From an uncultured Pelagibacteraceae bacterium (GTDB taxonomy: Bacteria; Pseudomonadota; Alphaproteobacteria; Pelagibacterales; Pelagibacteraceae): 64,000 bases of DNA. Of the stretch, positions 33,632 to 40,376 are shown piece by piece. Where the stretch lies: assembly GCA_902520335.1 (NCBI GenBank), contig CABYNS010000001.1, forward strand, positions 159,604 through 223,603, written 5' to 3'. The notes under the pieces are model-generated. The model had not been told where the DNA came from. It searched no databases and was given only the letters and a program-made list of their open reading frames with translations. The translations under genes and the position numbers were made by a program. Numbering within the stretch: the first letter of the stretch is position 1; each line of letters begins with the position of its first letter.

Positions 33632-34667
33632 CAAAATCCTTAGCTCAGTTCAGTCTAAAGGATTTAAATATATTGAATTACCATCAGTTATTGAGACTAA
33701 TCATATAGTTCAAAGATCTGGTGAAAGTTTTAGAAAATTTATTTTTTCATTCACAGATCAGACAGGTAATGAATTATGTTTAAGACCTGACCTTACCATT
33801 GCTTCTTGTCTTAGATATTTAAAAAACAATTTAAAGGGCAAAGAAAAAATATTTTATAGCGGACAGGCCTATAGAAAATCTCAAAATAAAAAGGACTCTA
33901 TAATCCGAAATCAAGTTGGTTTTGAGATTATAGGATCAAAAGATGAAAAAAATGATGACAAAGAAATAATAAATACATCACTTAAATCACTAAAAAATTT
34001 AAAATATTCAAATGGCACACTCACTATTGGAAATGTGGAAATTTTTAATCTTCTAATATCTAAATTAGATATACCGAAAAGATGGAAATTAAGACTTACA
34101 AGACATTTTTGGCGAGAAGATTATTTCAGTGATTTACTAAAAAGATTAGAGACAAATTCTGATGTAGATCCAACTATTGTTGAAGTTGATAAAAGACGAT
34201 ATTTAAAAATGTTAAAGGATAATCAATCATCAATTGTTGCAGGTAGAACATTAAAAGAAATTTTAGAAAGGTTTGATAAAAAGATTAAGGATCCAAGAAG
34301 AGCAAGTAAAGGAAGTAATACATCGAAAATCATTAAAGAGTTTCTAAAAATTAAATGTCCAATAAATAAAGCTGCAAAGGAATTAAATAAATTTTTTAAA
34401 AAACATAAAATAAACCTTTTTGTTGATCAGAAATATTTTCCTGTCTCAAAAAATAAAATATCTAAATTGAGTGTGGTTTTTTCATCAGCCTTTGGTAGAC
34501 AATTGGAGTATTACACTGGCATAGTTTTTAAAATAGATATCAAATTAAAGTCGAAAATTATTAATTGTTGTAATGGTGGTCGTTATGACAAATTAATTTC
34601 TGATCTTGGTTCAAAAAAAAAAACACCAGCTGTTGGAGCAGCTTTTAATTTAAATTATCAATCATGA
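33609..34667 (+). CDS. hisZ: ATP phosphoribosyltransferase regulatory subunit (HisRS paralogue)
   Basis: LCLRPDLTIASCLRYL, FYSGQAYRKSQ, class II fold; between hisS and hisG. Confidence 0.85.
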   Translation: MKSKNLSDKILSSVQSKGFKYIELPSVIETNHIVQRSGESFRKFIFSFTDQTGNELCLRPDLTIASCLRYLKNNLKGKEKIFYSGQAYRKSQNKKDSIIRNQVGFEIIGSKDEKNDDKEIINTSLKSLKNLKYSNGTLTIGNVEIFNLLISKLDIPKRWKLRLTRHFWREDYFSDLLKRLETNSDVDPTIVEVDKRRYLKMLKDNQSSIVAGRTLKEILERFDKKIKDPRRASKGSNTSKIIKEFLKIKCPINKAAKELNKFFKKHKINLFVDQKYFPVSKNKISKLSVVFSSAFGRQLEYYTGIVFKIDIKLKSKIINCCNGGRYDKLISDLGSKKKTPAVGAAFNLNYQS

Positions 34668-35350
34668 AAAATTTAATTAATATAGGAATACCAAGTAAGG
34701 GACGGTTAAGAAAAGATGTTTTAAAAATTTTTACTAAAAAAAGATTAAAGCTTATTTCTGAGCGAGGGGAAAGAGATTTGATAGGTTCAATAAAAAATAA
34801 ATTAAACATAAAAATTTTATATTTGCACGCTAGAGAAATTATTGAAAGATTAGGAGACGGTTCTTTAGATATTGGCTTTTCTGGTTTTGATTTATTAAAA
34901 GAAAGTGAGATAAATACCCAAAACAAAATAAACGTTGTTAAAAAACTTGATTTTGGAAATGCTAATCTAGTTGTAGCTATACCTGATCCTTGGATTGATG
35001 TTCAAACAATAGCTGACCTAGAAGAAATTGCGTTTGAATTTAGAGATAAAAAGAAAAAAAGATTAAGAGTTGCAACTAAGTATCCAAATTTAACTAGGGA
35101 TTTTTTATTTTCTAAAGGTGTTACCCAATTTAAATTGGTTGATAGTTTAGGAGCAACTGAAGCTTACCCTTTTACTGGTTCAGCTGAATTAATTACAGAC
35201 ATAACATCTACGGGTGAAACTCTTAGAGCGAATAACCTACGTATATTGAAAGATGGAGAAATCTTAAAATCTCAAGCTTGTATTTTTACTTCAAAAAAAA
35301 ATAGTAAAAAAAAAGGTTTAAAAAATTTTGTTAAATTACTTTCTAAGTAA
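34664..35350 (+). CDS. hisG: ATP phosphoribosyltransferase, short form
   Basis: IGIPSKGRLRKDVLKIF, RVATKYPNLTRDF, VDSLGATEAYPFTGSAELITDITSTGETLRAN. Confidence 0.94.
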   Translation: MKNLINIGIPSKGRLRKDVLKIFTKKRLKLISERGERDLIGSIKNKLNIKILYLHAREIIERLGDGSLDIGFSGFDLLKESEINTQNKINVVKKLDFGNANLVVAIPDPWIDVQTIADLEEIAFEFRDKKKKRLRVATKYPNLTRDFLFSKGVTQFKLVDSLGATEAYPFTGSAELITDITSTGETLRANNLRILKDGEILKSQACIFTSKKNSKKKGLKNFVKLLSK

Positions 35351-35497: not shown

Positions 35498-36589
35498 ATG
35501 GACACAATTTTATTAATAATTTTGATTTTAATGTTTGGAGCAATCCTGGCTATTTTGTATTTAAATATAAAGTCTAAGAAAGAGAACAGAGCTGATGAGA
35601 CTAATGAAATAGCAAATTTGAATGCGGAAATTATTAGATTAAAAGATAGCTTAAACTCTACAATCAATACATCTCTGAGTTCTATGTCTACTTCATTTAA
35701 CTCTTTATCAACTGGGGTTACAAAGGATATGACCGAAGCACTTACTAAAGTTGATGAGAAGGTTGGTAATTTTAATGAACAAGTAAAGCTTTTAAATCAA
35801 AGTCAAGAGGGAATTACTAAAATTTTAGCAGGGGTCAAAAAATATGGAACTCTAGCTGAGTATTCTTTGGATGCTCTAATTAAAGATTTATTACCTGCAT
35901 CTCAATATATGACTAATGTCAAAATGAAAGAAGATACAAGTGAAAACGTAGAATTTGCAATCAAGCTTCAAGGAGATGTTTTGGTTCCGGTAGACTCTCA
36001 TTTTCCAGTAGAAAAATTTAAGGCAATTACAGATGCGTACGAGGCAGATGATAAGAAAGCAGTTGCTGATGCTAGAACAAAATTAGCAAGTGCATTTAAG
36101 GTTAAAGCAAAAAGTGTTATGGAAAAATATATTGTTCCACCTAAAACTTCAAATTTTGCAATAGTGTATGCTCCTACAGAAAGTCTTTATAAAGAATTAA
36201 CTGAGTATCAAGACCCGAGCACTAAAGAGCTATTAACCCAAGAATTAATGAAAAAATATAAAATAGTAATTTGTGGCCCAAATACTCTTTCAGCTTATTT
36301 ACAGTCTTTACACATGGGCTTTCAGTCTCTTAAAATCTCAAAACACGCAACAGAGATTTATGATCATTTAAAAACTATTAGTACGAGATTTTCTAGTCAT
36401 TTTGATAATATTTATAAATTAAGAAAAAAACTTGAAGAGGCCATGACGGTTGTTGATAGTTTTGGAAAAGATGCAAGATCAATAACTAGAACTTTGGAAA
36501 ATATAAAAGATCCCGAGCAAGTTGAAAAAGCTGTTCTAACAGAGAACGTTGAGAGTTTTGTTGAAAGAAATAAACAAGTCAAAAAATAA
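35498..36589 (+). CDS. rmuC: DNA recombination protein RmuC
   Basis: N-terminal TM, coiled coil, then QGDVLVPVDSHFPVEKF, FAIVYAPTESLY, CGPNTLSAYLQSLHMGFQSL. Confidence 0.9.
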   Translation: MDTILLIILILMFGAILAILYLNIKSKKENRADETNEIANLNAEIIRLKDSLNSTINTSLSSMSTSFNSLSTGVTKDMTEALTKVDEKVGNFNEQVKLLNQSQEGITKILAGVKKYGTLAEYSLDALIKDLLPASQYMTNVKMKEDTSENVEFAIKLQGDVLVPVDSHFPVEKFKAITDAYEADDKKAVADARTKLASAFKVKAKSVMEKYIVPPKTSNFAIVYAPTESLYKELTEYQDPSTKELLTQELMKKYKIVICGPNTLSAYLQSLHMGFQSLKISKHATEIYDHLKTISTRFSSHFDNIYKLRKKLEEAMTVVDSFGKDARSITRTLENIKDPEQVEKAVLTENVESFVERNKQVKK

Positions 36590-36626
36590 TTTCTTTTTTC
36601 AGATAATACCGACTATAAGAAATCAC

Positions 36627-37313
36627 ATGCGTTGGAACAAAAAATATGATTATCCTAAAAGTTCAAGAGCAACAGAAGATGGAATAAGAAGATATGTGTT
36701 AGGTGAAGCTAAATTACCTAGTGTAACATCAATACTTGATGCAACAAAGTCAGAGGAAGATAAAGCAGCTTTGGCTAACTGGAGAGAGAGAACCGGTCAC
36801 AAAGAAGCTGAAGCTATTACAAAGGCAGCAAGTAGCAGAGGTTCTCAGATGCACAGCTATTTAGAGTCTTTTCTTTTGGGAAGAGAAAATTTGAGTTTTT
36901 TTGAAGACAATGAGCAATATAAAAAAATGGCAAAAGAAATTATTGATAAAGGTTTAACAAATAGATTAGAGGAAATATATGGCGTGGAGGCCACTATGCA
37001 TTATCCTGATAGATATGCAGGAACAGCAGACTGCGTCGGTGTTTATGAAGGAAAAGAAACGATAATTGATTTTAAGCAGTCCAATAAACCAAAAAAAGCA
37101 GAATACATAGATTCTTGGTTTTTACAAACTGCTGCCTATTCTTTAGCACACAATGTTGTTTACAATTCAAATATCAATACATGTGTTATTTTAGTTTGTA
37201 CAGTGGATAATTTATTTCAAGAGTTTAAAATTCAAGGGCCTGAACTAATAACATATCAAAATTTGTTTCTGGGTAGATTAAAAAAGTTTAATGAAATGAA
37301 TAATTTAGTTTAA
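36627..37313 (+). CDS. PD-(D/E)XK exonuclease, phage-exonuclease/MGME1-like
   Basis: LPSVTSILDATK, SSRGSQMHSYLESFLLG, YAGTADCVGVYEGKETIIDFKQSNKPK, LQTAAYSLAH; start set at Met 36627. Confidence 0.75.
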   Translation: MRWNKKYDYPKSSRATEDGIRRYVLGEAKLPSVTSILDATKSEEDKAALANWRERTGHKEAEAITKAASSRGSQMHSYLESFLLGRENLSFFEDNEQYKKMAKEIIDKGLTNRLEEIYGVEATMHYPDRYAGTADCVGVYEGKETIIDFKQSNKPKKAEYIDSWFLQTAAYSLAHNVVYNSNINTCVILVCTVDNLFQEFKIQGPELITYQNLFLGRLKKFNEMNNLV

Positions 37314-37319
37314 TAAAGA

Positions 37320-38756
37320 ATGGATAAGATTGTAATTTACGATACTGAAACTACGAATTCAACAATATGGGGATCCATAATTGAAGTTGGGGCTGTTGTA
37401 GTTGATAAAAATTTAAAAGAAATTGGAAAGTTGAATATAAGAGGACGAATGCCAGAAGGTGAGGTGCCAAGTGCAAAGGCTTTACTTGTAAATTCAACTA
37501 GTATTGATTTATTAACTAAAGGTAATTACTCACATTATGATTTTTTAGGTGTTGTTGAAAACTTTTTTTCAAAATGTGCCCCTGCAATGTTTATTGGTTG
37601 GTCAAATTTAAATTTTGATCGGAGAATGTTCCACTTTAATTTTTTTAAGGGCAATCGCTATCCTTACGCTACTCACTCATCACCTAATAGTGAACATGAT
37701 GGATTACATATAGCTAGAGCAGCTCAAACTTTAAATTCTGAAACTTTAAAAACAGAATTAACGGAAGCAGGAAACCCAAGCCTAGCACTAGAATCTTTAT
37801 CAAGGATGCAAGGCTTCGACACTTCAGCAAGCCACACTGCCTACGTTGATGCTCAAAATTCATTGAAAGTACTTCGAATTATTAAAGATAAACATAAAGA
37901 AAATTGGGAAACATTTTTAAAAACATCAACTAAAACAAGCGTAGAAACGTTTTTAAAAAATGAGGGCATATATTCTATTTTTGAAAATGTGAAGGGTAGA
38001 AATATGATGTATCTCACTAGCACACTACATCCAAATCATTGTTTTCATCCATCTTACGCATCGTGGGGATATGTTTGGGATTTAAGAAGAGATCCAGAAC
38101 CGCTATTAAACTTACCAATAAATCAATTGAGAGATATATTAAAAAAATATAGTCCCAAGGCTTTAAGAGTTTTGAAAACTAATAAAGCTCCAGTAATTTT
38201 GGATAAAGAGTTTGCCTTAGAACAAAAACCTTATTTAGACTTGGATTTAGAAACTATAAAAAAAAGAGCACAAATGGTCAGAAATAATGAAAATTTTTGT
38301 AAAAATATACAAATTATAAATAGAGAGGCAGCAGAGGAAAAAGAGCAAACAAAAACTCAGGAAGATCTATTACCTGAAGAAACTTTGTATGAAAAATTTA
38401 TTCCAAATAAAGATACTGCTCTTTTTAAAACCTGGCATAGTTCATCTTGGGAAGATAAGTTGAGATTACTAGATAAATTTCAAGACAAAAGATGTAGTTG
38501 GTTTGGTCAAAAAATAATTTATCAAGAAGCCCCTCAAATTTTGCCACCTGATTTATATAAAAATATTAAAAGTGAAATTGCTAGACGTATATTAAGTAAG
38601 AATAAAGAGAAATGGCAAACGGTAAATATGGCATATAATGAGATCGACTATTTGAGAGATCAAGCAGATAAAAGAGATGATAAAAATGAATTAAATAAAC
38701 TAGACGAAATAAATGATTTTATTATGTCTATTGAAAAGAAATATGAAATTGCCTAG
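37320..38756 (+). CDS. DEDD-type 3'-5' exonuclease, exodeoxyribonuclease I-like
   Basis: YDTETTNSTIWGSIIEVGAVVVD, FIGWSNLNFDRRMFHFNFF, HTAYVDAQNSLKVLRII. Confidence 0.75.
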   Translation: MDKIVIYDTETTNSTIWGSIIEVGAVVVDKNLKEIGKLNIRGRMPEGEVPSAKALLVNSTSIDLLTKGNYSHYDFLGVVENFFSKCAPAMFIGWSNLNFDRRMFHFNFFKGNRYPYATHSSPNSEHDGLHIARAAQTLNSETLKTELTEAGNPSLALESLSRMQGFDTSASHTAYVDAQNSLKVLRIIKDKHKENWETFLKTSTKTSVETFLKNEGIYSIFENVKGRNMMYLTSTLHPNHCFHPSYASWGYVWDLRRDPEPLLNLPINQLRDILKKYSPKALRVLKTNKAPVILDKEFALEQKPYLDLDLETIKKRAQMVRNNENFCKNIQIINREAAEEKEQTKTQEDLLPEETLYEKFIPNKDTALFKTWHSSSWEDKLRLLDKFQDKRCSWFGQKIIYQEAPQILPPDLYKNIKSEIARRILSKNKEKWQTVNMAYNEIDYLRDQADKRDDKNELNKLDEINDFIMSIEKKYEIA

Positions 38757-38790: not shown

Positions 38791-39108
38791 ATGCTTATAG
38801 ATTTTAAGGATGAAGATTTTGAAAACAAAATTAAAAGTGAAGACGTTTCGGTAATCCAGTTTAGTGCAGCTTGGTGTGGGCCTTGTAAGTCTTTAAAACC
38901 AATTATGGACAAGCTTGCTGTTGAGTATAAAGACAAGGCTGGTTTTTATTACGCTGATATAGAAGATGGTGGTATTAATACTGGAAGTGCTGCTGGAATA
39001 AGAGGTGTTCCAACAGTGATAATCTATAAAAAAGGTGTCGAGATTGATAGAAAAGTTGGTGGCGTACCAGAAAGCCATATGAAAGAGTTTTTAGAAAAAA
39101 ATATCTAA
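38791..39108 (+). CDS. Thioredoxin
   Basis: FSAAWCGPCKSLKPIMDKLA, GIRGVPTVIIYKKG. Confidence 0.93.
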   Translation: MLIDFKDEDFENKIKSEDVSVIQFSAAWCGPCKSLKPIMDKLAVEYKDKAGFYYADIEDGGINTGSAAGIRGVPTVIIYKKGVEIDRKVGGVPESHMKEFLEKNI

Positions 39109-40376
39109 TTTAAGTTTAATATTTCGCCAGCTAAATACAAAGATCCAGTAATTATTAAGATATCATTTTCTTTAAGCAATAAATTTTTAATTGCTCTCTC
39201 AATATCTTCTTCATATTTAACATTTTCAATATTCTTAAATTTTTCTTTTAATTTTTTACCACTGATTGCGTTTGGTTGATTTGGGATATCAACGGTGGTT
39301 AGAGATGATATATCTTTAAAGTAACTAATATACTTTTCATGATCTTTATTAGACATCATTCCTATAATAAAATGCTTATTACAATCTAAAGTTTGGAGAT
39401 ACTCATTTAAAACCCTAGCACCATCCTCATTATGACTTCCATCTAACAATAATTGGTTATTTTTGATTAGATCTTTAATTTTTCCAGACTTTATTTCTTG
39501 TAATCTGCCAATACTCTCAATTTTGGTAATTGCATTTTTTATATCATCATCCTTAATTTCTAAATTTAGTTGTCTTATTGTTGCTATTGCTGTTGAAATA
39601 TTTTCTAATTGAAATTGTCCAAGAATATTTGGCAACGGTAGTTTTAAGCCACCAAATTTATCCTCATAATAAAAGAAACCATTCTCTCCAATAGAATAGC
39701 TAAAATCTTCGTTAAAAAACAATTTTTTGGATGAATTTTTTAAAATTGTTTTCTTAATGTATTTAGTTGTATTTATTAAGTTTTGTTTAGATACAATTAT
39801 GTTTGAATTTAAAAGTGATGATGTTTTTTCAAAAACAATTTTTTCTATCGTTCGCTTACCTTCTGGCAGCCAGTCAAGATGATCTTTACTAATAGAGCAT
39901 ACTACACTTGCAAGGTTATTTTTTAGTATATTAGTGGCATCGAATCTATGAAATAAACCTGCTTCAATCAAATTGATATTATTAGTGTATTGTGCAGCTT
40001 TGTAAAAAAAACAAGCAGTTAAAATTTCAAAAAATGTGATTGGTTCATTTTTGTTTATTTTTTCAACTTCTTCAAAAATATCTGCTAATTTTTCATCTTT
40101 CAATTGTTGATTATTAAAAATAAATCTTTCATTAATTCTTTGAATATGGGGACTTGAATAAACATTACATTTAATATTTGCTTCTTTTAATATTGAGAAG
40201 ATAGCGTTTATTGTAGATTGTTTTCCATTAGTACCAACCACAGAAATTGCTTTTATTTTATCTTGAGGATTACCTAATCTTTCACAAAGAGTTTTTATAC
40301 GATTTAAGCTTAGATCTATTTCCTTAGGATGCAGCTTTTGTAAGCGACTGAGTATTTTCTGTAGTTTCATTTTCAT
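39105..40376 (-). CDS. folC: Folylpolyglutamate/dihydrofolate synthase
   Basis: LHPKEIDLSLNRI, VVGTNGKQSTINAIFSIL, ISKDHLDWLPEG, LLDGSHNEDGARVL. Confidence 0.92.
   Translation of the reverse strand: MKMKLQKILSRLQKLHPKEIDLSLNRIKTLCERLGNPQDKIKAISVVGTNGKQSTINAIFSILKEANIKCNVYSSPHIQRINERFIFNNQQLKDEKLADIFEEVEKINKNEPITFFEILTACFFYKAAQYTNNINLIEAGLFHRFDATNILKNNLASVVCSISKDHLDWLPEGKRTIEKIVFEKTSSLLNSNIIVSKQNLINTTKYIKKTILKNSSKKLFFNEDFSYSIGENGFFYYEDKFGGLKLPLPNILGQFQLENISTAIATIRQLNLEIKDDDIKNAITKIESIGRLQEIKSGKIKDLIKNNQLLLDGSHNEDGARVLNEYLQTLDCNKHFIIGMMSNKDHEKYISYFKDISSLTTVDIPNQPNAISGKKLKEKFKNIENVKYEEDIERAIKNLLLKENDILIITGSLYLAGEILNLN

Follow-up and report, generated by a model that had tools for sequence, protein, structure and literature searches.

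The locus described here raises a simple question: what is a nuclease of phage or mitochondrial type doing between two bacterial end-processing nucleases in the streamlined genome of a Pelagibacter strain? SAR11 bacteria outnumber all others in the ocean. The window (the whole 64,000-nucleotide stretch of DNA analysed) comes from a SAR11 Pelagibacter genome of 1.06 Mb, which is 90% complete and divided over 27 contigs (G000). In it, three genes lie side by side on the forward strand. The first, rmuC (35498..36589), encodes a 363 aa protein matching PF02646 (E 8.3e-49; 166.7 bits against a cut-off of 26), in which direct reading of the sequence reveals a hydrophobic N-terminal segment followed by a coiled-coil-like region. 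The second, hereafter exo (36627..37313), encodes a 228 aa PD-(D/E)XK exonuclease of MGME1/phage type, identified by phrog_298, a phmmer search of the PDB, Foldseek and a residue map. The third (37320..38756) encodes a 478 aa exoI/sbcB-like DEDDh 3'-5' exonuclease (PF08411, E 3.5e-16). What the initial annotation gave of coordinates, reading frames, shared strand and order, with rmuC before exo and the ExoI-like gene 6 nt after it, is correct to the nucleotide, and profile searches confirm the three families.

The usual left-hand neighbour of the cluster is hisG (34664..35350, forward strand; named from sequence and position). To the right lie a conserved thioredoxin-like gene, trx (38791..39108, forward strand; PF00085, E 3.9e-21), which bounds the variable interval described below, and a folC-like gene on the reverse strand (39105..40376; named from sequence), a right-hand anchor conserved across SAR11. 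The gaps are 37 nt between rmuC and exo, 6 nt between exo and exoI, and 34 nt between exoI and trx. From this spacing alone, the genes may form an operon; promoter scans at the cluster performed no better than chance, and terminator scans were likewise uninformative. The exo start at 36627 is backed by an N-terminal methionine and a following motif that align across SAR11 copies, and is favoured over a longer, TTG-started reading frame (from 36549) that overlaps rmuC.

Sequence searches and structure prediction agree on the family of the exo product. Firstly, exo matches the phage 'exonuclease' profile phrog_298 (E 3.7e-48, residues 6–217), while its match to PF12705 (18.7 bits) falls under the cut-off of 22 bits. 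Secondly, a phmmer search against all PDB chains, with matches accepted to E 10, gives four hits, each of them human MGME1 (E 2e-12 to 3e-11), and the A1 profile of SAR11 and phage proteins scores human MGME1 at 84 bits. Thirdly, the nine best PDB matches of an AlphaFold model of exo (mean pLDDT 93, pTM 0.89; built from 20 SAR11 sequences, SAR11 rows only) are all MGME1 in Foldseek (TM 0.75/0.86). The next match is RecE (TM 0.49), and the remaining matches to E 1e-3 lie at TM 0.45 or below.

The resemblance to human MGME1 extends to the active site. Residues H76, E121, D135, D148, K150, Q167 and Y171 of exo correspond to human H180, E223, D238, D251, K253, Q271 and Y275, and the first five are invariant in 52 SAR11 and phage rows. 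In MGME1, mutation of H180, E223, D238 or D251 lowers activity, and K253 lies in the active site (PMC6237815). The two proteins also share equivalents of T134 and W152 and a similar core length. They differ in that identity is 26%, exo sits on a bacterial chromosome with different partners, and its short length (with the motif starting near residue 30) leaves no room for a mitochondrial presequence. Other nucleases with the PD-(D/E)XK superfamily core, namely RecE, Cas4 and the C-terminal nuclease of AddA/RecB, are weaker structural matches (AddAB and Cas4 at TM about 0.3–0.45). Unlike a RecB/AddA nuclease, exo stands alone, with no fused SF1 helicase, and it matches TIGR02784 at an E value of only 0.13. 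Nor does it contain the four-cysteine Fe-S cluster of the Cas4/AddB type; its only cysteines (136, 186 and 191) fall outside the invariant set. Judged by sequence and model, exo is thus a T4-like phage/MGME1-type exonuclease and not a RecB nuclease. The initial annotation had leaned the same way, and neither the profile nor the structure searches point to a different nuclease family.

The ExoI-like protein carries the expected DEDDh motifs (DTE at residue 8, NFD at 98, H172...D177), has a C-terminal PF08411 domain above cut-off, and matches both the PADLOC model RTasSbcB (5.2e-55) and exonuclease I in the PDB (E 1.6e-14). Since its score against the NCBIfam exodeoxyribonuclease I model (110 bits) falls below the cut-off of 260 bits, we class it by sequence as a divergent ExoI-like member, and do not call it an equivalog.

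Within the window's genus, Pelagibacter, exo is carried by 148 of 159 genomes and missing from 11; genomes and MAGs being incomplete, absence calls, which are made from profiles, were judged at the level of groups and from single-contig genomes. Outside Pelagibacter, the only occurrence of exo in the order is on one contaminant contig. This 3.4 kb contig (C25; L155) is assigned to G087, a genome of another family, but its genes are close to those of Pelagibacter (identities of 86% for folC, 98% for trx, 97% for exoI and 98% for exo), and it is likely to reflect binning contamination. Across 399 Pseudomonadota genomes, a SAR11 and phage profile gives a single match at E 1e-10: the window's own genome. 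The matches to phrog_298 in the class are otherwise mainly nuclease domains of AddA-sized proteins, and two stand-alone-looking matches from outside SAR11 (G495 and G340) do not match the A1 profile.

Among phages, on the other hand, relatives of exo are widespread: in 920 phage records, they occur in pelagiphages, cyanophages, jumbo phages and Ackermannviridae. These phrog_298 exonucleases, which include pelagiphage HTVC027P gp27, HTVC023P gp85 and the cyanophage exonuclease T4-like GC 325, belong to the same family over their full length and share the invariant residues, with identity to exo reaching 43% in the two pelagiphages. What sets the SAR11 gene apart is its setting; it is chromosomal, near-fixed and placed beside rmuC and exoI, whereas the phage copies have no ExoI neighbour and adjoin genes of recombination, which encode UvsY, UvsW, endonuclease VII and SF2 helicases and, in cyanophages, PhoH/gp33.

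The phylogeny is in line with this distribution. In a 53-row tree, the SAR11 copies form one clade (99/97) within a SAR11 and pelagiphage clade (97/97), itself placed within other phages. The same topology is recovered (99/99 and 97/96) when human MGME1 and the longest phage rows are removed and the tree is rooted on the T4-like group. A single capture from a phage is the most likely origin of exo. The direction of transfer, from phage to host, is suggested by the wide phage distribution and the narrow host distribution of the family; support for nesting of the SAR11 copies within pelagiphages, as opposed to a sister relationship, is weak (48/26).

If exo was captured, the locus it entered appears to have been in place already. 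In nine genomes of other SAR11 genera, exoI and an adjacent rmuC occupy the trx–folC region with no exo. In Pelagibacter, no more than 2.5 kb separate exo from exoI in any of the 90 loci with enough flanking sequence (the two share a strand in 86), and rmuC is detectable in 80 of these. The initial annotation had raised the question of whether the three genes are conserved together beyond this genome; across Pelagibacter, they are. The cluster is conserved in close SAR11 loci, while order and content vary in deeper Pelagibacter lineages: the window lineage has rmuC-exo-exoI, four genomes (G026, G209, G046 and G107) have exo-rmuC-exoI, one (G235) has exo-exoI-rmuC, and in three (G040, G082 and G159) exo accompanies a divergent exoI on the opposite strand. 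Among closer relatives in the window lineage, exo dN/dS is 0.014–0.045, similar to or lower than that of hisG, with dS near saturation for farther pairs. By these ratios, strong purifying selection acts on exo, and the gene is no phage remnant in decay. Conservation of the cluster, the constant proximity of exoI and the low dN/dS together speak against a chance arrangement.

Two further observations concern the cluster's composition. The rmuC gene at the locus is ~60–100% identical to that of the window in some SAR11 lineages and only 19–31% identical in others, including within Pelagibacter, which suggests replacement by divergent versions; our search for literature on Pelagibacter and RmuC found nothing. 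One genome without exo (G201) carries a different PD-(D/E)XK nuclease, Cas4/RecB-like, between rmuC and exoI (L234:4488-5306), as if the slot had been refilled.

The reading that we favour, and hold to be probable, is that exo is a domesticated phage exonuclease, retained in Pelagibacter for DNA-end processing in recombination and repair. The proposed series of events is as follows: (i) a Pelagibacter ancestor would have acquired an MGME1-family PD-(D/E)XK exonuclease, its donor being a tailed phage akin to present-day pelagiphages, (ii) the gene would have settled in the hisG-trx-folC interval beside the pre-existing rmuC-exoI pair, and (iii) it would then have become a conserved, strictly selected Pelagibacter gene. 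By analogy with MGME1, its product would be an exonuclease of the two-metal kind that prefers single strands and cuts back flaps and single-stranded ends, probably favouring 5' ends (the polarity of MGME1 itself is debated in the literature). It may work next to the 3'-5' ExoI; polarity, substrate and the partnership with ExoI and RmuC are all inferred. Under this reading, a phage gene for DNA metabolism has become fixed in a host genus whose genome is streamlined, and a phage-derived exo beside ExoI and RmuC offers a concrete, testable candidate for SAR11 end processing.

A role for exo as a single-strand trimmer in recombinational repair is proposed because SAR11 lacks AddA and RuvC, and the window lineage lacks RecJ. 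In profile searches, AddA is absent from all 27 SAR11 genomes tested and above cut-off in all four other alphaproteobacteria; RuvC is absent from all 15 SAR11 genomes tested, with or without exo (including G000, G001, G003 and G005); and RecJ was not found in G000 or in the single-contig genomes G003, G015 and G020. Exo could thus take on 5' end processing, a task that falls to RecJ or AddAB in other bacteria. The recombination genes beside the phage homologues speak for the same role. It is not a specific replacement for AddA or RuvC, since SAR11 genomes without exo also lack both. Neither does exo track the loss of RecJ: RecJ is patchy within Pelagibacter (present in G005, G013, G026 and others), and among 15 SAR11 genomes, some have both genes and some neither (Fisher p 0.31). 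Frequent recombination is reported for SAR11 Ic and P. ubique even though both are without RecBCD and RecF (PMC12374537). A bolder version of our reading is that the phage MGME1-type 5' exonuclease, ExoI and RmuC form a rebuilt pathway that stands in for AddAB and RecJ, and perhaps for some of the steps that depend on RuvC, helping to explain the frequent, promiscuous recombination of SAR11. We regard this version as tentative, and would give it roughly one chance in four.

Divergent Pelagibacter loci (L247-L258, for example L247, L248, L249 and L254) reveal a second side of the region: here, the hisG-trx-folC interval is a variable hotspot. The exoI–folC part reaches ~15 kb and encodes HSP70-like, PDZ-TerB, DUF2130 and LRR-like large proteins, together with a second RmuC and a 1.1-kaa RecB-like nuclease/RNase H/SF1 helicase. 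Genes of 1000+ aa, 515–530 aa and 377–380 aa in these loci were considered as type I restriction genes; Pfam ruled this out, identifying them as RecB-like nuclease/RNase H/helicase, HSP70-like and RmuC. The hotspot is possibly a defence island.

This content gives rise to an alternative explanation, in which the cluster is an anti-phage module and RmuC, ExoI and the captured phage nuclease together degrade invading DNA. Several observations fit: the hisG–folC interval differs greatly among deep Pelagibacter lineages and contains the genes listed above; ExoI and the second RmuC are hit by RTasSbcB and RTasRmuC, models for proteins associated with defence RTs; a helicase protein matches the MkoA/MkoC models; and ExoI is very divergent in sequence between lineages. 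Moreover, an RmuC domain drives the Shield (ShdA) anti-phage system (PMC10270631); Shield and the defence-RT-associated RmuC/SbcB draw on the same protein families, RmuC and SbcB, as the window cluster. However, no reverse transcriptase was found among the Pelagibacter interval proteins scanned, and in PADLOC exo itself has a weak Cas4 match but is assigned to no system. The trio of the window lineage also differs from typical defence genes: its arrangement is stable and its conservation strict, it evolves slowly, and almost all genomes have it. We therefore consider a defence role unlikely, though worth keeping in mind.

Two other functions can be proposed for exo, and both seem to us very unlikely. 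A jumbo-phage survey (PMC7824862) places AUZ94847.1, the Atu_ph07 homologue, in the RecB family and likens it to archaeal resolvases, and exo could, in principle, be a Holliday-junction resolvase standing in for the RuvC missing from SAR11. Yet its fold matches that of MGME1, which is an exonuclease acting as a monomer, and the residues for catalysis and DNA contact are retained; RuvC is also absent from SAR11 genomes that have no exo; and in pelagiphage HTVC027P, an endonuclease VII-type resolvase gene overlaps the exo gene, so this phage has no need of exo for the task. Alternatively, exo might remove flaps or primers with a DNA polymerase, as MGME1, whose active site it shares, does with Pol gamma. 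Against this, polymerase I with its 5' nuclease domain is kept in 15 of 15 SAR11 genomes, and the neighbours of exo are end-processing nucleases rather than replication genes.

Finally, the initial annotation held that the gene is relevant to the origin of mitochondrial MGME1, implying that the enzyme is of ancient alphaproteobacterial descent, was preserved in Pelagibacter and passed to mitochondria by inheritance as MGME1. Although MGME1 is the nearest solved relative of exo and a union of the SAR11 and human proteins is not rejected (p 0.21), this origin is extremely improbable: exo is confined to one SAR11 genus and nested inside a phage family, other sampled SAR11 genera (which carry rmuC-exoI without it) and nearly all other Pseudomonadota lack it, other alphaproteobacterial matches are mostly AddA nuclease domains, and human MGME1 scores as highly with viral proteins as with SAR11 ones. 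The best topology has no clade that unites SAR11 and MGME1 to the exclusion of phages; in it, human MGME1 (the sole eukaryotic row, with a branch length of 2.8 changes per column) stands beside the T4-like phages, a placement that is not firm (96/65). Exo thus tells us little about whether MGME1 arose in alphaproteobacteria, and it points to phages as the group in which to seek kin of the mitochondrial enzyme. In the openly licensed literature on MGME1 with phage or origin, we found no paper tying MGME1 to the phrog_298 phage family.

Two minor observations concern ExoI. As judged by PF08411, it is rare in the class Alphaproteobacteria (8 of 142 genomes), and three genomes with ExoI (G254, G269 and G276) gave no AddA-type match in the class-wide phrog_298 search, a possible inverse pattern. 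In divergent Pelagibacter genomes (at L252:4273-5412, L253:7803-8942 and L257:5611-7092), a gene encoding a Peptidase_S24 (LexA/UmuD-like) domain precedes the divergent exoI on the opposite strand, a hint of damage-linked control.
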